64,000 nt of DNA from Chamaelirium japonicum (lineage: Eukaryota; Streptophyta; Magnoliopsida; Liliales; Melanthiaceae), in assembly GCA_947650365.1 (NCBI GenBank), contig OX393552.1, positions 18,626,351-18,690,350 of the forward strand, written 5' to 3'. A program made the position numbers and the translations under genes. Below the pieces are notes generated by a model. It had not been told where the DNA came from and ran no database searches. It saw only the letters and a list, made by a program, of their open reading frames with translations. Numbering within the stretch: position 1 is the first letter of the stretch; the number at the start of each line of letters is the position of its first letter. Shown here piece by piece: positions 14,898-62,177 of the stretch.

Positions 14898-17477
14898 CGC
14901 GGAAAAAAGCGCGGGTCGTCTTTATTGCGAATCACACGAGATTACAATTGTGGCCGGGACCCGGGTGGCTCGGGTGTAGCGAGTCCGGGTTGCGGCGAGT
15001 TTTGATCAGGGGATTGTGGGAAAGATCTTCTGGGGGATCCCTTTGATCCGCGTCTCCACGTGGTGTTCGTGCGAGAGCTCTGAAGGGGCTGCCCAGGACA
15101 GGGGTTTTACAGGGAGAGGGTTTTGGAGAGGCTAAGGAATGTCCACCGTTGCTTTGTCCCTTCCGTGCTTCGCGCTTTCTCGGCTAGGGGGTTTTCGGCT
15201 TCGTTCCTCGGTCTTCGCGTCTTCCTCGTTCCTTGCTTGACCTCGGTGTCCTTGATCGTCGGTTCGCGGCGTCGATCTAGCTTTTGGCGTTGGCTTTGGC
15301 TTTGGCTTTTTGGCTTTGGCTTTGCTCCGGCGTGGCTCTGGCTTTTGCTTTGCTTTGGCGCTTGCACTTGGACGTAGCTGGGAGAGACTTGCGATGCTTT
15401 CGTTCTTCCGGACTTCGCGTCGTATCGGCTAGAACGTGCGGTGCTTTTGCTCGTGGCCGGCGTAGTCGCTTGGCTTTGGCACTTGCGTTGCTTTGGCGCG
15501 GGCTTTACTGGGGCTTTGCTTTGGCTTCTTGCGTTGGCTTTAGCTTTGGCGTCAACTCGATCTTCTTCTTCGAACGACGTGGGCTACTTCTCCGGTGCTT
15601 CGACGGTTTACGTATCGACTGGACTTCTCTTCTTCTCCGGGCTTCTTTGGCGTGATCGGAGTCGAAGAATGGTTTCAAAGATGGTGGGAGTAGCACCGAT
15701 CTCCGTGCGACGGTTGTGGCGTCGGCTTTTGTTGATGAAGACGACGAGGGTAGCGACGGTCTCCGTGCGACGGTTGTAGCGTCGGCTTTTGTTGATGAAG
15801 ACGACGGGGTAGCGACGCTTCAGGCGATCTGCTCCAGGCTTTCTTCTTCGTGGATGGCGCAGGTGTTAGTCGAAGACGACGGTGGTGATGACGCTTCGCT
15901 TCTCTCCTCCGGGCTTTGGGGCTTGATTGAGGATTTGTTGGAGACGACGGGGTAGTGCCGCTCCTCTTCTTCTCCGGGCTTTTGGGCTTGATCGGAGTCG
16001 AAGCCTTGTTGGAGACGACGGGGTAGTGCCGCTCCTCTTCTTCTCCGGGCTTTTGGGCTTGATCGGAGTCGAAGCTTGTTGGAGACGACGGGGTAGTGCC
16101 GCTCCTCTTCTTCTCCGGGCTTTTAGGCTTGATCGGAGTCGAAGCTTGTTGGAGGCGACGGGGTAGTGCCGCTCCTCTTCTTCTCCGGGCTTTTGGGCTT
16201 GATCGGAGTCGAAGCTTGTTGGAGACGACGGGGTAGTGCCGCTCCTCTTCTTCTCCGGCCTTTTGGGCTTGATCGGAGTCGAAGCTTGTTGGAGACGACG
16301 GGGTAGTGCCGCTCCTCTTCTTCTCCGGGCTTTTGGGCTTGATCAGAGTCGAAGGCTTGTTGGAGACGACGGGGTAGTGCCGCTCCTCTTCTTCTCCGGG
16401 CTTTTGGGCTTGATCGGAGTCGAAGCTTGTTGGAGACGACGGGGTAGTGCCGCTCCTCTTCTTCTCTGGGCTTTTGGGCTTGATCGGAGTCGAAGCTTGT
16501 TGGAGACGACGAGGTAGTGCCGCTCCTCTTCTTCTCCGGCCTTTGCTTCTGGCGTCTTCGGAGTCGAAGGGTTCTTCTTCTCCGAGCTTTCTTCTTCGTG
16601 CATGGAGTCGAAGGGATGATCTTCGTGTGCAAGGGTCTTCACATTGATGAGGACTTTCAGTAAGCCGATCCCTCGGGACAGGCTTGACTGTGCCTCGTGA
16701 AGCCTTGGGTCGATGAAGAAGCGTCTCCTCTTCTGCAGAGCTCTGGCGTTTCGTCTTCAATTTCCCGACCATTTTTTCCTTCCCCCACCCCCTCTATTTA
16801 TAGGCAAAGAGGTGGGGAGAGAGATATGGGAACTTTTTAATTTTAAATCCCTTTTGTATCTCTCTCATAATTACCCGGATTTTATTCATCTATTGATGAG
16901 GGGAATAACATTTAGTTGTTTTCCTTTTCTGGCGGGTGCAATTATGGCTGGATTTTGCGCACGAAATCGATGGCGATCGGGCGCTTCGTCTTGTGCGTTG
17001 GATCGAGGGATCGGCGCAGATCCGCGTGTGTGCAGACGTCATACGCTACCTCCCCCCGCGCATGGCGGTATTTCTTTCCTTTTCTTTCTTTTCTTTCCTT
17101 TTTCTTTTCTTTCCTTTCTTTTCTTTCCTTTTTCTTTTCTTTCTTTTCTTTTCTTTCCTTGCAGGGCCGACCGGCCCCCCATGGGGTTCGGGTCCTACTA
17201 GGGCCGGCCCCATGTGGCTCGGGTCCTAGTAGGGGCCGGCCCCATGGGGTTCGGACCCTATTAGGGGCCGGCCCCCCTTGACGCATGGGGTCCGCTCCTC
17301 TTTGCTAGGTGCGAGTCGGGTCCGGGTCTGCATCGGTGCGCGCGAGTCGGGTCCGCGTGTCGGGTTTGCATCCACGTAGGGGCCTTTGAGTCGGGTCCGG
17401 GTCCGAGCGCGTCGGGTTTGCATTCACATCGGCACATGTAAGTCGGGTCCGGGTCCGACGAAATTCGTGTGTCTACA
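14898..17477 (-). repeat. Middle LTR of element C
   Basis: A third LTR copy (about 2580 bp) matches the outer two but starts a few bases inside, at cgcggaaaaaag, joined directly to internal sequence instead of a primer site. It ends at the same GTGTCTACA followed by a polypurine tract. It has no target duplication of its own, so it came from a duplication or template switch and was not a separate insertion. Its TATA candidate is near 16794-16804 (minus strand). Confidence 0.9.
15936..16550. repeat. 70-bp tandem array in middle LTR of C (9 units)
   Basis: Units begin at 15936, 16007, 16077, 16147, 16217, 16287, 16358, 16428 and 16498. The array has one unit fewer than the arrays of the two outer LTRs (ten each), which is the only sizeable length difference I could see between the LTR copies. 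Confidence 0.93.
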
Positions 17478-34021: not shown

Positions 34022-37000
34022 TTATGGGCTTAATCCCATCCCCCTCGACGATTCTAAGACCACTGTCCTCGAGAGGCCCTTAGTTAAATGATCTGCCAAA
34101 TTCTTTTCGGATCTAACAAAGTCTAAGGCAATTATTTGATTTTTCATCTTATATCTGAGAGATCTATGTCTCATTTTCAGATATCGATTTATTTTCACAT
34201 CAGCGTTTTCTTGATTACATTTATCAATAGCTGATCGACAATCACAATGGATAGATATAGTCGGTAAAGGCTTTTCTATCAATGGGATCTCATATAGAAG
34301 ATCTTGAAGCCATTCTGCTTCTGTGCTAGTGGTATCTAGCGCTATCAATTCTGATTCCATAGTACTCCTAGCTATAACGGTCTGTTTGGTGGATTTCCAA
34401 GATATGGCTCCACCTCCTAGTAGGAATACATATCCGGTTGTGGACTTAATATCTATTGAGTCACTAATCCAGTTAGCATCAGAGTATCCCTCTAATACAG
34501 CTGGATATCCACTATAGTGGAGACCGTATGATATGGTTCCCTTAAGGTATCTAAAAATTCTTTCTAACGCATTCCAATGGGACAAATTTGGATTAGACGT
34601 ATAACGACTAAGTCTATTTACCGCGTAAGCGATATCGGGTCGAGTATAGTTTGCTATAAAACCTAGCGATCCTATGATTTGAGCATACTCGCTCTGTAGT
34701 CTAGGAAGTCCAGTATTCTTTGTCAGATGGGTATTTGGATCATATGGTGTGGATACTGGTTGGCAATCGGGGTCATAAAATTTCCTAAGGATTTTCTCGA
34801 CATAGTGGGATTGGGATAACACTAAACCATTGTTCTTCCTAATGATCTTAGTGTTCAAAATAACGTCGGCTTGTCCTAGATCTTTTATGTCGAAGTTTTG
34901 GGACAAAAAATGTTTGATAGCATTTATGATTTGTATGTTTGAACCGAATATTAGAATATCGTCAACATATAAACATAAAATGACAACATTATTACCATCT
35001 ACTTTATGGTATACACATTCATCCATTGTATTGATATCAAATCCATAGGATAAGATAACTTCATCGAATTTCATGTGCCATTGTTTTGGGGCTTGTTTAA
35101 GTCCATAGAGGGATCGAATTAACTTACACACCTTTCCCTCTTGTCCAGGTGCAGTAAATCCCTCAGGTTGGTCCATGTATATTTCCTCATTAAGGTCGCC
35201 ATTCAAGAAAGCGGTCTTAACATCCATTTGATGTATGACTAGCTTATAGATTGAAGCTAAGGCGATGGGGATCCTAATCGTGGTTATCCTAGCGACAGGT
35301 GAGTAGACATCAAAGTAGTCTACCCCTTGTTTTTGGGTAAAACCCTTGGCTACAAGACGTGCCTTAAATTTATCTATGGTACCGTCGGGTCTAAGCTTTT
35401 TCTTAAACACCCATTTACATCCTATGGTTTTACAACCAGGAGGTAAATTGGTGAGTTCCCAGGTATGGTTTTGAAGTATGGATTGGATCTCGTTATCTAT
35501 GGCTTTTTTCCAAAAAGGTGAGTCTATGGACTTCATTGCATCTGTATAGGTGGAGGGAGAGTTCTCCACCATAAGTGCATAGAAGTCATCAAAGACTTTC
35601 TCTACACAGGCACGTTTACTCCTCCTAGGTTCGGTTTGGGTTAGCGGTTCAATCTGGTCTTCAGTAACTAATTGGACGTCAGGTTTGATCTGAGTCACCT
35701 GATTAGAACTGGAGGCCTGGTTATTAGTATTAATCCTAGTGTTGATCCTAGTCTTATAAGGGAAGATATTTTCGAAGTATGAGGCATCTCTAGCTTCGAT
35801 TATGGTGTTATTGGCTATTTCGCTTATTTCAGAGTTAAACACTAAAAATCGATTAGCGTTACTATCTGAAGCGTAGCCAATAAAGATGGCATCTACAGTC
35901 TTAGGTCCTATCTTCTTTCTTTTGTTATCGGGGATTTTTACCTTAGCTAGACACCCCCACACTTTTAAATATTCTAAGTTAGGTTTTATATGTTTCCATA
36001 CTTCGTATGGGGTTAAGTCATTGTGTTTGAAAGGAATGCGGTTAAGGATAAAAAAGGCCGTCATAAGGGCTTCCCCCCATAAGTTCTCTGGCGCTCCAGA
36101 GCTTAGTAACATGGAATTGACCATGTTCATTAGGGTCCTGTTTTTCCTCTCCGCTACACCGTTGGATTGGAGAGTGTAAGGAGCTGTGACTTCATGGAGT
36201 ATTCCATAGTCATCACAGTATTCACTTAACTCATTTGAGGTGTACTCCCCTCCTCGGTCTGACCTAAGGATCTTAATGGTTTCGTCTAATTGGTTTTCAA
36301 CCAGAGCTCAGTAAATTTTAAATTTACTGAGTACTTCATCCTTAGTTTTAATAAGGTATAGGTGGCAATATTTTGAAGCGTCATCTATGAACGTTACAAA
36401 ATATCTATTGCCACCTCTCGAAGTTCTCCCAGAATCACAGACATCGCTGTGAATTAATTCAAGTATATAGGAGTCTTGATCGATGGTTTTAAAAGATTTC
36501 TTAGGTTGTTTGGCTTCTACGCATATCTCGCATTTGTCGAGATTCCTAGTATCGGATTTAGGAATAATGTTTAAGGTCATGAGTTTCTTAATAGAATTAT
36601 AATTTACATGACCTAGTCTTTGGTGCCAAGTAACCGAAGACTTAACATTCAGAATTGTAGATGAAGGATTAAAGACATTCAATTTGAATAAGCCATCACA
36701 GAGAAATCCTTTTCCAATAAAATTTGTTCATTTAGTTATTACAACTTTATTGGACTCGAATACAAGCTTATACCCATGTTGTACTAACAAGGACCCACTA
36801 ATAAGATTTCTCCTAATCTCCGGAACGTGGTGGACTCCGCGCAGGGTTAGGGTCTTCTCCGACGTCAGCTTCAAGTCGATCCGTCCTATCCCTAGCACAC
36901 GAGCCTCAGCATTGTTCCCCATGCTTACAGCTCCTCCACCTGAGACCTGATAGGTGGAAAACAAAGATTGATCAGAGTAAACATGAATGTTAGCTCCTGT

Positions 37001-38052
37001 GTCAATCCACCAATCAAATGCTTGAAAGCTTATGTTAACTTCAGGGGTGAAGAGAACAGACCTGAAAGCGGTCCCAAAAGAGCCAGCTCCAGAGGTCACC
37101 ATGTTGACTTGGGAGCCGGGTGGCATTTGACCATTCCTTCTTGGATTTGGAGGTGGTGCTGTCTTCTTGTAGAAGCATTGGTTGGTCATGTGATTGGTCC
37201 GACCGCAGACGTAGCAGCAACGCACTCCTTCCTTCTTTTGGTCCTTGGGATGGTTTGGGTTATGGTGCTATGGTATGGCTTCTTGGTATATGGCTTAGGC
37301 TTAGGGTGGAAGGGTTTCTTCTGGAACTTATGTCTAGGTTTTTGAAATGGCTTAGACGGTTGACCCTCTACGTTGTTGACCTTGGGTTTGGATTCAGAGG
37401 ATCCCTTTTCCCTGAGCCTATGTTGCTCCTCAATTCTAATAGAGTTTAGAACTTGAGTTAGGGTTAGGTCACCTTGGGTATGACTTAGGTGCTTAGAGAA
37501 CTCAGACCAAGAAGCAGGTAGTTTATCTATAAGACATGCTATTTGAAAGGTTTCATCAAGGGTGGAACCATTAGTCTTCAGATGTTGGACTAGGTTCTCA
37601 AACTCATGAATCTGATCATTCATGGGTTTGGAGTCAACCATTTTGAAGCTGTTGAAGTCTGACGCTTTGAAGCGTTTTACTCCAACATCATCTAGGCCAT
37701 ACTTACGCTCTAGGGTATCCCATAGCTCCTTAGGGTTTTGAATGGTATAGTAGATATCATATAGCCTATCAGATAAGGCCCCTAGGATCCTATGGAGGCC
37801 ATGGTAGTTGATTTCTTCTGGGGTTCTAATGGGAATGCTAGAAGTTGGTTCAGATTCAGGTTGAGAAGTGGAGGCTCGGGTACGACGAGTTTGGCTAGAC
37901 CCATTGGATACTCCTGGTGCGGTTTCACCTATGGCTGACAATAACCCAAGTGTGGTTAGCCAGAACCGCATCTGGTTTTGTCACCTCTTGATGTTAGACC
38001 CGTCAAACTTCTCGGGTTTGGCACTAAGGGTTTCACGGTTTGGTGAGGCCAT
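34022..38052 (-). pseudogene. gag-pol coding region of Copia element A (fossil)
   Basis: Read from 38052 downwards: a gag start (MASPNRETLSAKPEKFDGSN), the UBN2-type gag body (37971-37190), a CYVCGRTNHMTNQC zinc knuckle near 37200, a protease with WWIDTGANIH near 37000, GAG-pre-integrase WHQRLGHVNYNS near 36630, an integrase core near 36450, a further integrase part ([12 protein letters not shown]) near 36100, reverse transcriptase ([11 protein letters not shown] near 35400, [12 protein letters not shown] near 35210, YVDDILIFG near 34960) and RNase H ([12 protein letters not shown] near 34430). The pol type resembles Tnt1-94/Ivana-Oryco-like plant Copia proteins; the lineage is tentative. It is broken, with about four breaks; the reverse transcriptase-RNase H part is the best preserved. 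Confidence 0.9.
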
Positions 38053-38495
38053 TTCGGACCAAAGTTAGGAGTTGAAATCTGTGGATTGAAAAATGAGTTT
38101 TGTCAATTTTAAAGCACACTATATAGATTTGACTTTCAGAAGTCAAAATGAAACTTCCAAATCCTAACGGCCAGATGGGCTCCAGGTAGGAGGTGGAGCA
38201 CTAGGCTCGCTCAAATACCAAGCTACCTTGGGCAATTTAATGCCGGTTTGTCAAGCCTTTCTAGACACCGTAGGCAGTGGAATATTCCAAATAATGACTC
38301 TTATTCTTTTCTAAAATGTATGCTTTTAATTAACTTTTGTAGAAAACTAATTTTTACTAATAACTATAGCGCAACTTTTAACGACTAATAATGAAACTAT
38401 TTATTCTATGATAACAATACTAACAAAATGATTTGTACAATAGAGAATGATAAAATATAATAAACGATTTAATATTAACAATAAGTTTCTTGGAT
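38053..38495 (-). other. Leader of element A
   Basis: AT-rich, non-coding DNA lies between the gag start and the 5' LTR. Next to the LTR the minus strand reads ATCCAAGAAACTTATTG. This is not the initiator-methionine primer site found in elements B and D, so the priming tRNA is unknown. Confidence 0.65.
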
Positions 38496-39583
38496 TGTTG
38501 GAAATATAACCGTTCTATACTAGCAAATTTAGTGATTTAATCAATTCTTAAGATTAAACATTAATTAGCAAATGTTATTTTCGCAAACAAGGACAAATCA
38601 CAAAATTCTTTTAGGAATGGTTTGCCAAGGCAGAGCGGGTTCTATGGAACCGTCATTCACCTTGCCGAACTTTTCTAAAAGAGATAAACAATCTATCTAA
38701 AATATATCTAATTATTTAGATTTCTCTATTAGATGCAAGTCGATTATTTTAGATCTAATATTAGGACATAAGAAGAGTTAGAAACTCTGGCATGTGGTCG
38801 AAGCGTGCTAGGCACTGTCCCAAGAAACTTATTGCCCCCCTCGTGCGGGTCTCGTGGCAATGGTTCTCGGAGATACGGCGACCCCGGTCAGGCGACCTCC
38901 TTCTCGTCGGCACGACTCCAAGAAGGTTTTGCGAACCTCGTGAACTTTCAGGAACCCAGCGACTCGGATGACGATCTTCTCGAATCGGGGAGGCAGCACC
39001 ACAGCAGAGCCTTGGTCCGAGAGAGGAAGTCTCTTCGGAGCAAAGGGGCAGCACAACAGCACCACGATACGAGAGAATGGAAGAGGGAGAGGCAGTAAGC
39101 AGGGAGGAATTCCGATTTTCGGAGTGTACTCATCCCATGGCTACACCGGGCCTTATATAGGCCTCGGGCAGTTAATGGGAGGCTGAAAGAGGGGAGCGGT
39201 TAATGGGCTGCGATTAAGCCCATTAACCTCGCACGTTACAGCTCGCAGCGAGCCTGTATGTAACGTCTAGCATGCAGCGCTTCTCGCGTAACGGCTAGTG
39301 TCCCAAATAGTAAATAATAAATAGTGGAGGACTTAAAAGCAAAAAACAAAAATAGGGCAGGTGCGGACCAGACCGTGTCCGGGTCCGCGGGCGCACACAC
39401 ACGTGCCGCCCAGCCCATGCCCAAGCCCAAGCCCGGCCTGGCCCGGCTCGGCTCGGCTCGGCATGGCACGCACGCACGCGCGTGTGTGAGCTAGTGGAGC
39501 CCCTCCTCTAGTGTGATGACTAGTGGGGGGAAGTGGGCAAATCCTGATATGTTGGTAGGGGATTTCTCCCCTAACCGATATGG
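38496..39583 (-). repeat. 5' LTR of Copia element A, outer end missing
   Basis: It matches 3027 to about 4110 at roughly 98% apart from one short length difference, then stops matching at gatatgg and continues into unrelated sequence. It includes the symmetric TATA-like ccttatatagg near 39151-39161. Confidence 0.88.
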
Positions 39584-40082
39584 ATACTCTTGCTACATTA
39601 AAATCATGGTAGCAACCACAAAATATAGTATCACCCGATGAATAAATACTCTTTCTGATGACGAATGGATACTCTTTCTGGAGATGAATGTATACTCTTG
39701 CTATAATAGCTACAGTGAAATCATTGTAGCAATCGCTACATATATAGTGTTAATTGGTGAATGGATACTTTTACTGGAAATGAATGGATACTCTGGCTGG
39801 AGGGGCAATTTTATAATTTAAAGGATTTTTGGTTAAGGACTTGTTGTACAAACATGTCCTTCGGTAGGGACTTTAGTTAATATCCTAACAATTTGTATCC
39901 TTTAGCTTGAATAAAGATATGTGGAGGAATTTAGGACTAATTAATCCAAAAAAATACTAGCACACAACAATGAATTTTGCATAAAGTCCCGAACAAATAT
40001 TGATTTTTTTATATAAAACCTTCTCAGTTCTCAAATTTTTCCAGACAGGCATGGATAAAATGGTCATAAAAGTGACCTTGGG
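39584..40082. other. AT-rich DNA with short diverged repeats
   Basis: The phrase gaatg(g)atactctt(g/t)ct recurs at about 39582, 39645, 39664, 39690, 39760 and 39784, and a longer pair ('actcttgct...gtagcaa') occurs near 39590 and 39697. This suggests an old minisatellite or duplicated MITE remnant. No gene is seen. Confidence 0.45.
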
Positions 40083-40258
40083 ATGGTCTTGCAAAAATTA
40101 GGAATCGCGCGAGGGCTTCTTTATCTTCACGAAGATTCTCGGCTCAAGACAATTCATCGGAATATGAAGGCAAGCAACATCTTGGTACACGGGGACATGA
40201 ATCCTAAAATTTCGGACTTCGGTCTGGCAAGTCCATTCGGCGCAAACGAGACCCAGAG
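40083..40258 (+). pseudogene. CRK-type kinase fragment, plus-strand copy
   Basis: The plus strand encodes [19 protein letters not shown] followed by [10 protein letters not shown] and [18 protein letters not shown]. These are the catalytic and activation-loop regions (subdomains VIb-VII) of a cysteine-rich receptor-like kinase or related plant receptor kinase. The usual HRDLK is HRNMK here, so the catalytic Asp is replaced and the fragment could not be an active kinase even if expressed. Only about 55 residues remain, with no upstream glycine loop and no downstream APE region. It forms the left arm of an inverted repeat with the minus-strand copy at 40289-41295. Confidence 0.8.
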
Positions 40259-40462
40259 CACCTTCTCTTCATTCAATTACTTCCATACCTATACCATCAA
40301 ATATGGATCAAGTGTCATTCTCTGGGTCTCATTTGCGCCGAAAAGACTTGCCAGACCGAAGTCTGAAATTTTAGGATTCATGTCCCCGTCTAGCAAGATG
40401 TTGCTTGCCTTCAGATCCCGATGAATTATCTTGAGCCGAGAATCTTCGTGAAGATAAAGAAG
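40116..40462. repeat. Kinase-fragment inverted repeat (hairpin)
   Basis: Left arm 40116-40258 and right arm 40320-40462 are each 143 bp, read as reverse complements with nine mismatches (about 94% identity), and are separated by 61 bp. A transcript crossing it on either strand would fold into a long, nearly perfect hairpin made of kinase coding sequence. The homology originally extended further: right-arm sequence resumes at 41221-41243, after the retroposon. Confidence 0.9.
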
Positions 40463-41295
40463 CGGCGCTCTGTTTCCTTTTTCCCCCCTTTCTCTCGCGG
40501 CTAGGGTTAGGGTTCCCCCTCTCTTGGCCTCTCCGGTTGTCGGATGCGGCGCCGGGGAGGCCAGGGGATCCAATTCGGCGCTTCCTAATGGGTTGGAGCA
40601 GACCCTTCTCCTCCCCTGCACATAGGGGTCTCCCCCATCCAGACTGGCGTTTTGTTCTCGTAGATCGGGTTGCTAGGAGGCTCCCCAGCTCGGATCAACG
40701 GCTTCCACCCCCGATTCGACGGCTTCCTGGCCGACTGCAGCTGGATTTGGTGGATCCTGAACTCAGCCGAAATATGCCTTGGTTTTCAGTCCCTTAGTTG
40801 ATCGGTGGCGGAGCTGGCGATTCGAGGCGGCGACACTGGTTCGTGGCTGAGCGGAGTTCATCGGGCACCACTTCATTTCTGCCGGAGCTGGTGGTGGTGG
40901 TGGATCGATCGAAGACTCCATTTTGGTTAGCCCTCTTTTTGGATTTTCTTGGTTGAGCGATTGTTTGCTCCTTTTAGGTTGTTGGTCTAGTTTTCTCGCC
41001 GGAGATCCGGTGGTCAGTTTGGTTCGCCGGAGTGGCGACGGTTTATTCCTACTGGTGGGCAGGCTAGTTGGGTCTAACCAATTAGTGGTCTGGTTTTGTT
41101 TCGCCATCGAGTGACGGTTGGTTGTTCCTCCACCTGATGGTGGTTAATGTTGCGCCGACATGTGGCGTCTCCCGGAGGTCCGATTGAGACCTCCCCCCTT
41201 GCATCTACCAAAAAAAAAAAGAAGCCGTCGCGCGATTCCTAATATGTTCTTGTACCGAATATGCCAGTCGAGTTCCGTCTGGTGAGATTGATTAC
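40289..41295 (-). pseudogene. CRK-type kinase exon, minus-strand copy, split by a retroposon
   Basis: Read from 41295 downwards: TELDWHIRYKNILGIARRLL, then the retroposon (41217-40464), then [19 protein letters not shown] and [18 protein letters not shown]. The LDW...RY...[12 protein letters not shown]...HRDLK order is typical of DUF26 receptor kinases. The catalytic HRDLK and the DFG motif are intact. A splice-acceptor-like gctttttcttgcag ends at 41296 (minus), so this looks like the start of an internal kinase exon. After FGANETQ the homology ends, near where CRK genes usually have an intron. The DUF26 exon on the same strand (50120-49329) lies upstream in the right order for one gene. Confidence 0.78.
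40464..41217 (+). mobile_element. GC-rich poly(A)-tailed retroposon, 754 bp
   Basis: The insert starts ggcgctctgtttcc and ends in a run of A at 41209-41220. It is flanked by the 8-bp direct repeat AAAGAAGC (40456-40463 and 41218-41225) and interrupts the kinase exon, which resumes on both sides. Poly(A) plus target duplication means LINE-driven insertion. The body (ggctagggttaggg, gccggagctgg) looks like a plant LINE 5' region or a captured 5' untranslated region. No reverse transcriptase or endonuclease frame is present, so it is non-autonomous or internally deleted. Confidence 0.75.
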
Positions 41296-41468: not shown

Positions 41469-41905
41469 TAGGGGTGTCAACGGGTCGGGTCGGGTCCAAA
41501 ACCCCTAGACCTGGACCCGACCCGTTTAACTAATCGTGTCTAGATCCTAAACCCGTACCCGACCCGCTAATAAACGGGTAGATCCGATAAGACCTGATAA
41601 GACCCGTTTACCACACGGGTCTATTCAGTTGACCAGATCCGACCCAATCCAACTCGACCCGACCTGACCCGATAGACCCGCTAGTACTATATATTATAGT
41701 ATCGGATTGCGGGTAGACCCGACCCGACACTACCTGTTGAATTTTAAACAGGTCTTACCAAGTCTACTGTGTCCAGACCCTAAACCCAGACCCGACCCGT
41801 TTATCAAACGTCTATCGTGTCAACCTGTTTACGACCCGAACCTGTTTATCCCTGACCCAGACCCGCTAACTTCGTGTCGGGTCGGGTCCGAAATTGCCAG
41901 CCCTA
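41469..41905. mobile_element. hAT-type MITE, copy 1 (437 bp)
   Basis: It starts TAGGGGTGTCAAC and ends TTGCCAGCCCTA (imperfect inverted ends), flanked by a perfect 8-bp direct repeat ATCTAATC (41461-41468 and 41906-41913), which is the hAT target size. The interior is full of gacccg/cgggtc units that can pair. It is non-coding. Two relatives lie at 54199 and 55114. Confidence 0.88.
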
Positions 41906-42889: not shown

Positions 42890-42894
42890 TACCC

Positions 42895-43205
42895 CCACTT
42901 GCTTCCATCCTCGAGCGCTCCCCCTCGACGATCCCAGCGCAGACCTCCCCGGGCTACCTCTCTGTCCTCCAGCGTCTTGAGCTTCCTCTTCGACAACTGC
43001 AATCTCGCCGTCCTCTGGCTCGACGGCATTTGTCGACTACCTCGAGGACCACTCTATCACCGACCCCAGCTCCCTCTCCGCCCTCAAGTCCTCCCTCTCT
43101 ACCTTCAAGTACGACCCCTCCCCCCTCGACAGTTGCCTCCGAGAAGTTTGAGTCCGAGTTCCGACGCCTCGTTCGACCACACTTCAGAGATATAAGCTGG
43201 GAATC
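42895..43205 (+). pseudogene. EXO70-like fragment, left arm
   Basis: Pieces such as SFLFDNCNLAVLWLDGI, YLEDHS and LSTFKYDPSP resemble the N-terminal part of plant EXO70 exocyst subunits (LTDNCGLAxxWLDDIVEYLEDH and LESEFRRLL patterns). Read strictly, the frame shifts within the fragment, for example around the WLDG and DYLEDH parts, so it is not translatable as one piece. EXO70 proteins help tether secretory vesicles at the plasma membrane, and several act in plant immunity. Identification rests on short motifs only. Confidence 0.5.
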
Positions 43206-43663
43206 AGTTTTGGGGAATAAATAAAATTTTCTTTTCAATTGACTGCTAGCAGAGTTTGACGACCATTCATTCATCTTCTTCCTCCTCCTTTGCCTATTCT
43301 ATAGGCCGGCTCAACAATGTCGTTCTTTCCCAAACTCTCCATACTCTTCCTGCACTCCCTTCTCGTCATACTCCAAATCCCTACTACTAATTATGATCAC
43401 TTCTTTGTGAAATTCTGCACACATGAAGCCAATTACACTTCAAGCAGCACTTTCCGGTCCAATCTCAATATCCTCCTTCCTTCCCTCTCCGTTGCTGCAG
43501 CCCCTGCCGGGTTTTCCAACCAAACTGATAGCCCGCTCCCGGACCAAATATACGACCTCTCCCTCTGCCGAGATGACATTTCCCCCAGTGAATGCCAGGG
43601 TTGCCTCAATACATTGATCCAAAACATCACAAGCCGATACACATCTAAAAAGAGAGTAATGAT

Positions 43664-44368
43664 TGTTGGGGTTCCATCCCCATGGAGGAGACCCAAAGGG
43701 GAGGGGAGCATAGCTCCTTCCCAATCGGACTTGCACCCGAGTCACCCGGCGCGAGACCCGACTCGCCCGGGCGAGTTCCTTAGCCACAAATGAGCAGAAA
43801 ATTCAGCAAACCCACTTGGGCGAAGTCGGGTCGGATCTGTTTTTCTGCAGACCCGTTTTGGGATGTTTTAAAGGCTCTTTGAAGGTGCTTTTGGAGTATG
43901 CTTGAGTTGGCTTTGAGAATCCTTGGAGAGGGCTTTGAGGGCTGATTTTCTAAGGGAGAAGGAGTGCTTTCTTCTACAAGGAAGGAGAAGATTTTCTTGG
44001 GGATCGATCTTCGGCGGATAGATCGGATCTAAGCTTGCAAGGAGGTATGTTCCTTGAGGCTTGCTAGGGTCTCTACTTGTTGAGCCCTAGAAAGGGGGAA
44101 AGGTGTAGATCTAGAAGGAGGAAGAAGAAGGAGTCGGGTTGTACTCTCGTCTTACTTGCCGTCTTTGATAGTGAAGCCCTCCCCTGAGCATTTGCTCACC
44201 GTGGTTTTTTCCACAAGGGTTTCCACGTAAATCCCCGAGTCATCTTCTTTGCTTGTGATTGAATTATTTTGCATTTGTGATTGGATTGTTGTTTGCTCTT
44301 TTTTTGGTTCATCTCACGGGGAAGAGATCGTCGGTTTCGTGGTTGAGCCGGTGCAGTTTTTCCCATCA
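43664..44368 (+). repeat. 5' LTR of Copia element D
   Basis: A 705-bp LTR, TGTTGGGGTTCC to TTCCCATCA, nearly identical to 48471-49175. A weak TATA-like ttttaaagg lies near 43865. It holds 'cgcccgggcgag' and other CG-rich palindromes in its first 130 bp. Confidence 0.94.
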
Positions 44369-44370
44369 AG

Positions 44371-48451: not shown

Positions 48452-48470
48452 TGGGTCTGGAGGGGGAGAT
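48452..48470 (+). promoter_or_regulatory. Polypurine tract of element D
   Basis: The sequence GGTCTGGAGGGGGAGAT directly precedes the 3' LTR, as expected for the plus-strand primer. Confidence 0.85.
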
Positions 48471-49175
48471 TGTTGGGGTTCCATCCCCATGGAGGAGACC
48501 CAAAGGGGAGGGGAGCATAGCTCCTTCCCAATCGGACTTGCACCCGAGTCACCCGGCGCGAGACCCGACTCGCCCGGGCGAGTTCCTTAGCCACAAATGA
48601 GCAGAAAATTCAGCAAACCCACTTGGGCGAAGTCGGGTCGGATATGTTTTTCTGCAGACCCGTTTTGGGATGTTTTAAAGGCTCTTTGAAGGGGCTTTTG
48701 GAGTATGCTTGAGTTGGCTTTGAGAATCCTTGGAGAGGGCTTTGAGGGCTGATTTTCTAAGGGAGAAGGAGTGCTTTCTTCTACAAGGAAGGAGAATATT
48801 TCCTTGGGGATCGATCTTCGGCGGATAGATCGGATCTAAGCTTGCAAGGAGGTATGTTCCTTGAGGCTTGCTAGGGTCTCTACTTGTTGAGTGCTAGAAA
48901 GGGGGAAAGGTGTAGATCTAGAAGGAGGAAGAAGAAGGAGTCGGGTTGTACTCTCGTCTTGCTTGCCGTCTTTGATAGTGAAGCCCTCCCCCGAGCATTT
49001 GCTCACCGTGGTTTTTCCCGCAAGGGTTTCCACGTAAATCCCCGAGTCATCTTCTTTGCTTGTGATTGAGTTATTTTGCATTTGTGATTGGATTGTTGTT
49101 TGCTCTTTTTTTGGTTCATCTCACGGGGAAGAGATCGTCGGTTTCGTGGTTGAGCCGGTGCGGTTTTTCCCATCA
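48471..49175 (+). repeat. 3' LTR of Copia element D
   Basis: A 705-bp LTR matching 43664-44368 without any length difference. Its end CCCATCA is followed by the target duplication ATGAT and then the resumed DUF26 frame. Confidence 0.94.
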
Positions 49176-49328
49176 ATGATATGGTACGACAACTGCATGT
49201 TGCGCTACTCTGACCAAAATTTCTTCAACTTTGTTGATCCTTCGTTCATTACCGTGCTCGGCACAAGAGATTCATCGGGTTCGACGATATGTAGATGAGG
49301 ATACTTGGTTGTGTTGAATATACTCCGC

Positions 49329-50120
49329 TTATCTACTCTGTTTTAAATAATCCTGATTGACTCCGTCATCTACAGTGACTTTGTAGAAAGGATACGTCTC
49401 ATATCGAATGATGCAGCTAGAAGTTAACACCGTCGTCGCTCCTTGCTTCCAATTACAACAAGTATAGAGGAACTTGAAATAAGTTTGGAGGCAATTGTTG
49501 CACAGGCGGACCGACAAGTCTCTGGTGCACTGAACCATCCCATAGAGCTTTACATTGCTCGAATAGTTGACTTCTCCGGTGGCAAACTATCGGGCTGAAC
49601 TTTGGGTCGCCCTACTAATAAGACTTTCAAACAACTGCTCCAAATAATAACTAAATGTCGTTGAACTCGATGAATTTATTGTGCCGAGCACAGTCATGAA
49701 CGAAGGATCAACAAAGTTGAAGAAATTTTTGTCGGATCGGAGTAGCGCAACACGTAGTTGTCGTACCATATCATTGCTCTCTTTTTAGATGTGCATCGGT
49801 TTGTGATGTTTTGAATCAATGTATTGATCGAGACAACCCTGGCATTCACTGAGGGAAATATCGCCTCGGTAGAGGGAGAGGCCGTATATTTGGTCTGGGG
49901 GCCGGCCATAGGTTTGGTTGGAAAACTCAGCAGGGGCGGCAGCAACGGAGAGGTAAGGAATGAGGATGTTGAGATTGGACTATAAAGTGTTGTTTGAGGT
50001 GAAATTGGCTTCATTTGAGCAGAATTTCAAAAAGAAGTGATCAAAATTAGTAGCAGGGATTTGGAATATGACGAGGAGGGTGCGGATGAAGAGTATGGAG
50101 AGTTTGGGAAGGAACGGCAT
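49329..50120 (-). pseudogene. DUF26 (CRK extracellular) exon, right arm
   Basis: Read from an ATG at 50120: a leader, first DUF26 domain remnants (GDISLSECQGC, where the first Cys of the C-x8-C-x2-C motif is Tyr), WYDNYVLRYSD, and then a second DUF26 domain with an intact CTRDLSVRLCNNC motif near 49530. It ends RYETYPFYKVTVDDG and a stop at 49329. The coding frame is interrupted near the first motif and again around 49590-49700. Both DUF26 domains are present, so this is the more complete copy. No transmembrane segment follows. It is probably exon 1 of a dead CRK whose kinase exon may be the minus-strand copy at 41295-40289. Confidence 0.83.
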
Positions 50121-50199
50121 TGTTGAGCCGGCCTAGAGAATAGGCAAAGGAGGAGGAAGATGAATGAATGGTTGTCAAACTCTGCTAGCAGTCAATTGA

Positions 50200-50560
50200 A
50201 AAGAAAATTTTATTCATACCCCAAAACAGATTCCCAGCTCATATCTCTCAAGTATAGTCAAGGGAGGTGTCGGAATTCGGACTCGAGCTTCTCGAGTGCC
50301 GTGTCGAGGGGACAGCTGTTGAGGGGGGAGGGGTCATACTTGAAGGTAGAGAGGGAGAACTTGAGGGTGGAGAGGAAGAGGGGGTCGGTGATGGAGTGGT
50401 CCTCAAGATAGTTGACAATGCCGTCGAGCCAGAGGACGGCGAGATTGCAGTTATCGAAGAGGAAGCTCAAGATGCTGGAGGGCAGAGAGGTAGCCGGGGA
50501 GGTCTGCGCTGGGATCGTCGAGGAGGAGCGCTCGAGGGTGGAGAGGAAGAGGGGGTCTTC
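50200..50560 (-). pseudogene. EXO70-like fragment, right arm
   Basis: The minus strand reads SFLFDNCNLAVLWLDGIVN, YLEDHSITDPLFLSTLK and LDTALEKLESEFRHL, a continuous EXO70-like N-terminal segment of about 70 residues (50470-50258). It is better preserved than the left-arm copy and supports the identification. It is cut off on both sides: the right end stops at about 50560, where Gypsy fragment F begins. Confidence 0.55.
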
Positions 50561-51881
50561 ACCCTTTTGTTGTAGGCCCTCTTCAGCTACTGGACATAGT
50601 TAGCGAAGTTAGCAGCAGCTCTGTCCCTTCTCTCGTCCAGCAGGTCCAGGCTACTTATCATCCACTCATCGTTCATTCCCGAGCTAACGGCTCTGGATCT
50701 GGTCATCGAGTAGATCGCCTCCGTTGGAATTGCTGCTTCGGCCCCAAAGGCGAGGTTGAAGGGGGATTTTTGTGTAGGTTGCCGAGGTGTCGTCCAGTAG
50801 GTCCAGAGTACCCATTAAGGGCTTCATCCCAGAGCCCCTTTCGCACATCGAGCATCTTCTTTAGATTGGCGATGATAGTCTTGTTTGTCGTTTCTGCTTG
50901 ACCGTTTGCTTGTGGGTAATAAGGCGAAGAGAACTGGATCTCTATGTCGTAGTATTTGCAGTAGTCCTTTACTCGAGCCGAACTGAATTGGGGCTCGTTG
51001 TCCGCAATCAGGCTCTTGGGTAAGCCGAACCTGATGATGATGTTGTTCCACAGGAAGCGTTCCATGTCGATATCCTTTACCGTCACAAGAGGGACGGCCT
51101 CCACCCACTTCGTGAAGTAGTTCGTCGCCATCAGCAGGAACCTCTTCTTGTTGGGAGTTGCCGACAGAGGTCCCACTATGTCCAGCCCCTACTACTAGAA
51201 GGCCCAAGGAACATAGTGACTCTGGAGTTCTTCAGCGGGCTGATGGATGGCTGGTCCGTGCTTCTGGCATTGTTGGCACTTTCAGCTGAAGCTGATGGCG
51301 TCGGCTTCAAGAGTGGGCCAGTAGTAGCCTGCTCGGTTGACTTTGTGTGCCAGTAGTCTTTCTTCGGAGTGATTGCCGCATTCTCCCTCGTGTATCATCG
51401 ACAGAATCTTGTAGGCCTCTTCCGGTCCCACGCACCTTAGAAGGGACCCTTTGCTTGATCTTTGGTAGAGCACCCCCGTTGTGAGTTAGAACTTATGTGA
51501 TCTTCTCTTATCTTCTGCGCCTCAAGACAGTTCGTCGGGAGCTGCTCTGTAGCAAGGTAGGCTCTTGGCCAGAGTCCGGGATCGTCCCCAAGTTTCGTTG
51601 AGGTGATCCCGGAGATCCGTCTACCAATGAGCGTAGACTTTTGCCACCAAGTCGTCCATCCTTTGGAACAGTTTCTCTTGGTTGGCCAAGAGAACTTCTA
51701 GTAGTCGATGCGAGGGAAAAGGGGTAGGAGGATCCTGACCCTCCTAGTTCGGGCGGACCCCTTCACCAGCGTAGGAGAAGGACGTCGAAGCGACTGACTT
51801 CTCCTTGCCTTGGCGAGTTGTCACCATGGATGTAGCTTGTTAGAGAGGAAGTTGGAGTTGATCACATTAAGATGGGAGAGG

Positions 51882-54198: not shown

Positions 54199-54676
54199 TA
54201 GGGGTGGCAATGGGTCGTGTCGGGTTGGGTTCGTGTCGGGTCTAGTTTCGGGTCGTGTCCAAAACCCCTAGACTTGGATCCGACCCGTTTAACTAATCGT
54301 GTCTAGACCCTAAATTCGTACCCGACCCACTTATAAACAGGTAGACCCGATAAGACCCGTTTACCACACGGGTCTATTCAGTTGACCCGATCCGACCCAA
54401 TCCGACTCGACCCGACCTGACCCGATAAGACCCGGCTGGTACTACATACTATAGTATCGGATTGCGTGTAGACCCGACCCGACCCGTTGAATTTTAAACG
54501 GGTCTTCCCGGGTCTACCGTGTCCAGACCCTAAACCTGGATCCGACTCGTTTATAATACGGGTCTACCGTGTCGACCCGTTTACGACCCGAACCCATTTA
54601 ACCCAGACCCAGACCCGCTAACTTCGTGTCGGGTCGTGTCTTGTTTGCCGTGTCGGGTCCAGAATTGCTGGCCCTA
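54199..54676. mobile_element. hAT-type MITE, copy 2 (478 bp)
   Basis: It starts TAGGGGTGGCAATG and ends AATTGCTGGCCCTA, flanked by a perfect 8-bp direct repeat AATAGATG (54191-54198 and 54677-54684). The interior is rich in gacccg units, as in copy 1 at 41469. The related empty site near 52810 independently confirms the ends and the target duplication. Confidence 0.92.
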
Positions 54677-55113: not shown

Positions 55114-55362
55114 TAGGGGTGGCAATGGGCCATGACAGGTCGGGTTCGTATCGTGTCTAGTTTTCGGGTCGTGTCCAAAACCCCTAGACCTGGACCCGAC
55201 CCGTTTAATTAATCGTGTATAGAGCCTAAATCCATACCCGACTGGCTTATAAACGGGTAGACCCGATAAGACTCGTTTACCACACGGGTCTATTTAGTTG
55301 ACCCGATCCGACCCAATCTGACTCTACCCGACCTGACCCGATAAGACCCGTTGGTACTACAT
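55114..55362. mobile_element. hAT-type MITE, copy 3 (truncated)
   Basis: It begins TAGGGGTGGCAATG after the same AATAGATG (55106-55113) as copy 2, and follows copy 2 until about 55362, where both the MITE and the duplicated unit end. It arose from the segmental duplication and not from a new insertion. Confidence 0.85.
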
Positions 55363-59739: not shown

Positions 59740-60805
59740 GTTGGCTACGGGCTCCTGCCGTGGGTGGTCTGCGCCGAGAGCTGTGACTGCCAGTATTTCA
59801 CAAACGCTGGGCGGGCCGGGAGCATCAGCCGCGAGCGATCTCCTTCCGGTGCGAGCTTGTCACACGCGGTCAGGGTCTGCGTCGGGCGAGCTGCGGGCAC
59901 CAGCCGTGAGCGATCTGCGTCGAGAGCTTTGACTCCTAGTATTCCACAAACGCTGGGCGGGCCGGGAGCGTCAGCCACGAGCGATCTCCTTCCGGTGCGA
60001 GCTTGTCACACGCGGCCAGGGTCTGTGTCGGGCGAGCTGCGGGCACCAGCCGTGAGCGATCTGCGTCGAGAGCTTTGACTCCCAGTATTCCACAAATGCT
60101 GGGCGGGCCAGGAGCATCAGCCGCGAGCGATCTCCTTCCGGTGCGAGCTTGTCACACGCGGTCAGGGTCTGCGTCGGGCGAGCTGCGGGCACCAGCCGTG
60201 AGCGATCTGCGTCGAGAGCTTTGACTCCCAGTATTCCACAAACGCTGGGCGGGCCGGGAGCGTCAGCCACGAGCAATCTCCTTCCGGTGCGAGCTTATCA
60301 CACGCGGTCAGGGTCTGCGTCGGGCGAGCTGCGGGCACCAGCCGTGAGCGATCTGCGTCGAGAGCTTTGACTCCCAGTATTCCACAAACGCTGGGCGGGC
60401 CGGGAGCATCAGCCGTGAGCGATCTCCTTCCGGTGCGAGCTTGTCACACGCGGTCAGGGTCTGCGTCGGGCGAGCTGCGGGCACCAGCCGTGAGCGATCT
60501 GCGTCGAGAGCTTTGACTCCCAGTATTCCACAAACGCTGGGCGGGCCGGGAGCGTCAGCCACGAGCGATCTCCTTCCGGTGCGAGCTTGTCACACGCGGT
60601 CAGGGTCTGCGTCGGGCGAGCTGCGGGCTCCAGCCGCGGGCGATCTGGGTCAAGAGCTTTGACTCCCAGTATTCCACAAACGCTGGGCGGGCCGGGAGCG
60701 TCAGCCACGAGCGATCTCCTTCCGGTGCGAGCTTGTCACACGCGGTCAGGGTCTGCGTCGGGCGAGCTGCGGGCTCCAGCCACGGGCGATCTTGCGGCGT
60801 AGGCT
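59740..60805. repeat. 146-bp tandem array in element E (about 7 units)
   Basis: The marker caaacgctgg recurs every 146 bp at 59801, 59947, 60093, 60239, 60385, 60531 and 60677. Units are 95% or more alike and contain two related halves (gagcgatctccttccggtg and gagcgatctgcgtcgagag). The period is not a multiple of three, and frames are open in several registers, so it is not coding. Confidence 0.95.
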
Positions 60806-61149
60806 TTGGCTCGGCGTCTCATGGGTGAGACCTCGAGGACGATGCTGCTATGTCCAAGGAACGCAGCTCTCCGCTACTGCAAGCGTCGGGCGGGCCGGGA
60901 GCACCTTCCACGGGCGGCCTCCTTCCGGTGCGAACTAGCTGCGCACAGTCAGGGTCCACACCGGGCGGGCTGCAGATACCTGCCGCAAGCGACCTCGCGT
61001 AGGGTCTCCGGGCGGGTTACGAGCCACAGCCACGGGTTGGTCCCGGGCGGGCTGTGAGCCATGGCCACTGGTGCTTCTTCTCTCTGTGTTCTGCTCAAAC
61101 TGCCTCCCGCTACTGCCGCGTGGACAACAAACTGGTGTGGCCTTGTGTC

Positions 61150-61728: not shown

Positions 61729-62060
61729 CTTGCTTTAAGTCCGCACAACGGCGGACTGCCCCGGGAAGCTCAAGGTCGCCCACTGGCTGCCTCTGAGGAT
61801 CCCGGTCTTGCTTTAAGTCCGCACAACGGCGGACTGCCCCGGGAAGCTCAAGGTCGCCCACTGGCTGCCTCTGAGGATCCCGGTCTTGCTTTAAGTCCGC
61901 ACAACGGCGGACTGCCCCGGGAAGCTCAAGGTCGCCCACTGGCTGCCTCTGAGGATCTCGGTCTTGCTTTAAGTCCGCACAACGGCGGACTGCCCCGGGA
62001 AGCTCAAGGTCGCCCACTGGCTGCCTCTGAGGAACCCGGTCTTGCTTTAAGTCCACGCAA
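61729..62060. repeat. 78-bp tandem repeat in element E (four units plus part)
   Basis: Units begin cttgctttaagtcc at 61729, 61807, 61885, 61963 and, partial, 62041. They are nearly identical. The period is 78 = 3 x 26, so the minus-strand frame (61610-62137) reads a 26-residue unit containing QRQPVGDLELPGAVRRCADL four times. Coding is possible but there is no known domain. Alternatively the frame is open only because the unit happens to lack stops. Confidence 0.93.
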
Positions 62061-62177
62061 CGGTGGACTGTTCTTTGAGGATGCTGCACGTGAGCTGATC
62101 GCGTGCGAGCTGTTCGCTGTAGATTACTATCGAGCATAGATTTGAACTAGTCCAAACACACTATCGCACAAAATGGT

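Follow-up and report, generated by a model that had tools for sequence, protein, structure and literature searches.

A decayed CRK-type receptor-kinase pseudogene of Chamaelirium japonicum that appears to carry a fold-back copy of its own exon 4

Introduction

In a 64,000-nucleotide window of the Chamaelirium japonicum genome (C4:18626351-18690350; by the window we mean the whole stretch of DNA analysed), two receptor-kinase fragments face each other and could pair almost perfectly, which arrangement raises the question of whether the locus is a nascent source of small RNAs, a passenger of transposons, or the remains of one gene that was folded back upon itself. We approached this question through searches of the window and of the genome assembly (1.52 Gb, 3253 contigs). 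For sequences of the window we use CRK, LTR element, and copia as labels, which we presume to fit.

Results

Extent and Stability of the Hairpin

The inverted-repeat search of the window identified two arms of 144 nt (40115-40258 and 40320-40463) that are 94% complementary, differ at nine sites in their alignment, and lie 61 nt apart, so that the near-perfect hairpin placed at 40116-40462 by a preliminary description is real. As RNA, the 347-nt stretch folds with a minimum free energy of -247.7 kcal/mol, as compared to a mean of -82.0 (sd 5.4) for shuffled sequences (z = -30.8); and, since 0 of 100 shuffles were equally stable, chance is excluded. This energy agrees with the earlier statement that any transcript across the arms would become a long double-stranded RNA, in whose stem the uninterrupted runs of duplex measure 35, 25, 20, and 19 nt. 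The Rfam scan of the window gave no match at the gathering scores.

Arms of 143 bp had originally been described, and that core repeat exists; but a third inverted pair (40097-40127 with 41213-41243) carries the homology outside 40115. The left arm in its full length accordingly spans 40097-40258 on the plus strand, 162 bp without a break, and its additional 18 bp (40097-40114) pair with sequence beyond a 0.75-kb insertion by a retroposon that splits the right arm. With 60 nt as the minimum length, seven inverted pairs were reported in the entire window: the hairpin, five pieces of an ectodomain repeat considered below, and one retroposon pair.

The Gene of Origin

Both arms align with exon 4 of a kinase gene, which result supports the inverted duplication of a kinase fragment that had been proposed, and the arms do span HRDLK to DFG as claimed. 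The Pfam search, covering seven kinase and ectodomain pieces, recognised a kinase domain in sequence from each arm; both arms derive from a protein-coding gene, as is the case in MIRNA or siRNA loci born by inverted duplication. The right arm, on the minus strand, corresponds to the parent exon: its inner part (40320-40463) holds the HRDLK-to-DFG segment, while its outer part (41218-41295, with pairing up to 41243) includes the exon start at 41295, behind a CTTGCAG splice acceptor, and the exon reads GNQSHQTELDWHIRYKNILGIAR and then, past the insert, 47 residues. The left arm is the inverted copy, where HRN replaces HRD, the loss of the catalytic Asp being as first described.

When the genome was searched with the hairpin, 20 places were matched among the best candidates: the hairpin itself and 19 single exon copies, most of which were listed on both strands solely because the query is palindromic. 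The closest over the full arm among the matches listed was a paralogue at C6:42478692 (L008; C6:42.47-42.48 Mb), whose kinase exons are open in frame and which has a PF01657 ectodomain about 12 kb upstream. Exon 4 of this paralogue is 88% identical to the right arm and 83% identical to the left. The loop (40259-40319, minus strand), far from being unrelated sequence, proved to be part of the same gene structure: its bases at about 40302-40319 are the last that are kept of exon 4, and from 40301 leftwards the segment 40257-40301 corresponds to where intron 5 ends and exon 6 begins in the paralogue, with 79-82% identity. Only 34-45 bp are covered by that match, whose E-value was 0.014 when exon 6 was compared with the window and 3e-5 when the arm plus loop was searched against the fetched loci; its order and strand, however, are those expected for the gene. 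For exon 5, and for the kinase exons that precede exon 4, nothing in the window matched above background. Since the loop holds the beginning of exon 6, exon 5 was lost; and, in view of the order and strand of the loop match, the right arm and the loop belong to one gene with exon 4 joined to exon 6.

That gene is no longer an intact CRK receptor kinase with an ectodomain and a complete kinase in one open gene: exon 4 is split, exon 6 is matched over only about 34 bp, the other kinase exons are unmatched in the window, and the minus-strand copy of the ectodomain is interrupted by stops and frame changes. Exon-4 and exon-6 remains are likewise found in the genome's ordinary CRK-type paralogues and its pseudogenes; what sets the hairpin locus apart is that its own exon 4 is also present as an inverted copy. 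From these comparisons we read the hairpin as a single CRK-type pseudogene on the minus strand, part of whose exon has been duplicated in inverted orientation, and not as two stray fragments. The previous reading, of two facing kinase fragments, was right as to their kinase derivation, but overlooked that arms and loop have a common source in one wrecked gene.

To judge from a protein search with the exon of the paralogue, inspected by eye for the best 150 of 704 candidates, the hairpin locus has the only pair of kinase matches on opposite strands within 5 kb, none of the other 148 scored matches having such a partner. A foldback element or MITE would recur in several copies with the same ends; the 20 places found (best candidates) comprise a single hairpin locus, the other 19 being lone exon copies, which argues against a repeated foldback element.

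The Retroposon and the Flanking Repeats

The right arm breaks off at 40463 and resumes at 41218. Between those positions a plus-oriented, poly(A)-tailed retroposon (40464-41217) is inserted, flanked on both sides by a target-site duplication, AAAGAAGC, which we read by eye at 40456-40463 and 41218-41225. The insert ends in a run of A, and the genome repeat search revealed its family to be dispersed, with at least 44 matches (the best 40 of 632 candidates scored), several of them nearly full length and sharing common ends. Because the left arm runs uninterrupted across the corresponding site, it was copied from an uninterrupted exon.

On the left, a dispersed repeat occupies 39584-39954, and for 39955-40096 no origin was found. 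The LTR at 38495-39583 would be expected to drive transcription away from the hairpin, since the retrotransposon-like frames at 34022-37980 lie on the minus strand; the retroposon, too, appears to point away from the arms. Elsewhere in the window, the direct repeats 3026-4115/38495-39583, 4359-6495/31525-33661, and 11467-14138/28085-30762 (with a third copy at 14898-17477) resemble the LTR pairs of nested elements; tandem arrays occupy 59744-60812 (period 146, 7.3 copies) and 61729-62070 (period 78, 4.4 copies); and a repeat rich in GGGTCGGGTC-like motifs occurs at 41485-41888, 54248-54640, and 55164-55362.

Divergence of the Two Arms

With the C6 paralogue as the outgroup, eight of the nine mismatches were assigned to the left arm and one to the right (two-sided p 0.039). 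At 40150, 40161, 40185, 40188, and 40234 the right-arm base is shared by at least 16 of 19 paralogues, this one among them; 40164 has the left-arm base in 12 of 19, and 40214 and 40235 are mixed. As only five of the eight changes have the backing of at least 16 paralogues, the bias toward the left arm is merely suggestive. By the same polarisation, seven of the eight left-arm changes are non-synonymous, among them HRD to HRN, while the single right-arm change is silent, which pattern supports the notion that the left arm evolves as non-coding sequence and agrees with the earlier view that any function of this arm would be at the RNA level. Possible explanations are a later death of the right arm, its conversion by a paralogue, or errors made when the left arm was copied. 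As a possible footprint of methylation, differing CpG sites made up 2 of 9 between the arms versus 51 of 443 in four less-divergent local repeat pairs, numbers too small to speak for or against methylation decay, as were the transition counts from the same sets.

Potential Reach of the Arms

Among the 19 fetched kinase loci, which had been chosen by their similarity to the hairpin, the right arm contains a 21-mer within one mismatch of 18 (exact in 4) and the left arm one within one mismatch of 15 (exact in 0). The similarity of the arms to these candidate targets is an extended one, as in MIRNA or siRNA loci that arose by inverted duplication. The same exon piece of the ordinary C6 paralogue, however, reaches 12 of the 18 other loci, and since the loci were also pre-selected, much of that reach would be due to the conserved motif rather than to the hairpin. 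Of the suggested action on many CRK members, then, the part that stands is that the sequence would permit wide targeting, the reach itself being largely that of the motif.

A Second Inverted Repeat in the Window and a Palindrome on C12

A second CRK-type inverted repeat starts 1.6 kb from kinase exon 4. Its plus-strand copy of the ectodomain (PF01657) lies in two pieces (42891-43663 and 49174-49294), separated by an LTR element whose LTRs (43661-44369 and 48468-49176) are 98.3% alike; its minus-strand copy extends over 49651-50556, the gene homology continuing on to about 49365. These arms are 88.4% alike over 893 aligned sites. Because the divergence of the hairpin arms (9/144) and that of the ectodomain arms (104/893) are not clearly different (p 0.060), both repeats could possibly have come from one complex event. 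In both ectodomain arms a sequence is fused upstream of the ectodomain (50258-50599 on the minus strand, with the frame FDNCNLAVLWLDGI...), parts of which recur in the genome and which is without a Pfam match at E 0.01.

A PF01657 scan, in which 107 of 107 candidates were scored with 90 matches, displayed by eye matches on opposite strands within 10 kb both in the window and at C12:33.46 Mb, two loci in all. In the C12 palindrome (L045, C12:33459214-33460489) the arms share 87.7% of 868 sites and are separated by about 0.4 kb, and an open frame of 204 residues survives in one copy. In a tree the ectodomain arms group within each locus (the C12 pair with a support of 84), and the matches on C12 start far inside the query taken from the window and lack the part upstream, for which reasons separate origins of the two palindromes are favoured; conversion between arms could yield the same grouping by locus. 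A further candidate (L047, C2:102062477-102063112, at C2:102.06 Mb) was rejected as a palindrome, its opposite-strand pieces covering different parts of the gene, as in an inversion.

Discussion

Alongside the observed anatomy, gene of origin, missing exon, insertion in one arm, and rarity among the scored matches, we consider it quite probable that the locus is a decayed CRK-type pseudogene carrying its exon 4 a second time as a fold-back copy, and persisting as a neutral relic with no function of its own. A receptor-kinase gene on the minus strand would have decayed into a pseudogene; a fold-back or template-switch repair would then have laid an inverted 162-bp copy of exon 4 just behind the start of exon 6, with exon 5 and its introns presumably being lost in the same event or at another time; and the poly(A) retroposon would have landed afterwards in the parent arm. 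The foldable product would since have drifted, most likely functionless. If any transcript did cross it, plant Dicers would be expected to cut that RNA into small RNAs resembling many kinase mRNAs, in which sense the hairpin would be raw material for a silencing locus.

Three observations sit uneasily with a neutral relic. The 8:1 skew of the mismatches poorly fits a drift of both arms, and could reflect lasting constraint on the right arm or its conversion after the copying; the long perfect runs of duplex persist; and two CRK inverted repeats occur at one locus, though such pairs are very rare among the matches seen, which coincidence chance does not explain well.

We judge it rather unlikely that the locus is already a working young silencing locus, whose transcript would fold and be cut by Dicers into RNAs of 21-24 nt that repress or methylate intact CRK genes. 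The long, near-perfect duplex, the 21-mers that approach most of the fetched loci, and the silencing by partial inverted gene copies reported for Populus and soybean (PMC9636151, PMC3534067) speak for such a role; but the retroposon and the LTR at 38495-39583 seem to point away from the arms, the targeting reach is mostly common to an ordinary exon, and the base of the stem now holds a retroposon. Highly speculative is the extension whereby the exon-4 hairpin and the ectodomain repeat would form a nascent two-hairpin locus from one CRK gene, able to damp the family via both domains, with the C12 palindrome as a parallel fold-back birth in this family of immune receptors.

That a transposon with a captured kinase fragment, or a foldback element, brought the hairpin here is more improbable still and already largely refuted: transposons do surround the locus, and on its left side a dispersed repeat reaches to about 39954; but no second copy of the hairpin appeared among the 20 places found as best candidates, and the loop and right arm retain the exon order of one gene, with a splice acceptor upstream, as would be expected of an origin in place. 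Inverted copies are a known sequencing artefact, but we give an assembly or library fold-back almost no weight, the arms differing at 9 of 144 sites and one of them carrying a 0.75-kb insertion with its target-site duplication.

On the preferred reading, in which an exon of a pseudogene was copied by fold-back, the parent exon, the inverted copy, the exon lost from between them, and the later insertion are all readable at one locus. If transcribed, the hairpin would show, in a form that can be traced, an early step in the birth of small-RNA genes by inverted duplication; if never transcribed, it would be an ordinary pseudogene and a caution against calling every hairpin of gene fragments an siRNA locus. 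Inverted partial CRK copies are present at two loci of the genome, two in the window and one on C12, which count might reflect up to three events. The open-licence literature yielded no paper on such a CRK hairpin, which is weak evidence about what is in print.

The stem of a usual MIRNA is shorter than arms of 144-162 bp, in which respect, and in being known from sequence alone, the hairpin differs from a MIRNA born by inverted duplication. The model of such births by Allen and colleagues, described in PMC3237417, has adjacent facing segments of one protein-coding gene whose arms keep an extended similarity to the family, as we find here, and the same paper ties a pseudogene context like that of the hairpin to inverted duplication; the hairpin has the anatomy that this model calls for, and is as a silencing locus a candidate only. 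For the inverted partial duplicates of ARR17 in Populus, PMC9636151 reports 24-nt siRNAs and methylation of the target; those duplicates and the CRK hairpin are alike in consisting of inverted gene fragments that can form a hairpin under a relaxed coding constraint. The aquaporin and CHS inverted repeats of soybean (PMC3534067) share with the hairpin the inversion of part of a member of a multigene family, but the aquaporin repeat measures 621 bp, with copies about 1,000 nt apart, and has siRNAs mapped to it, whereas the shorter CRK arms (144-162 bp) are a matter of sequence. Since the anatomy fits the model (PMC3237417), and the silencing loci reported elsewhere are made of similar fragments (PMC9636151, PMC3534067), what the comparison warrants, rather than a conclusion of silencing, is the mapping of small RNAs to these arms, which effort we consider worthwhile.
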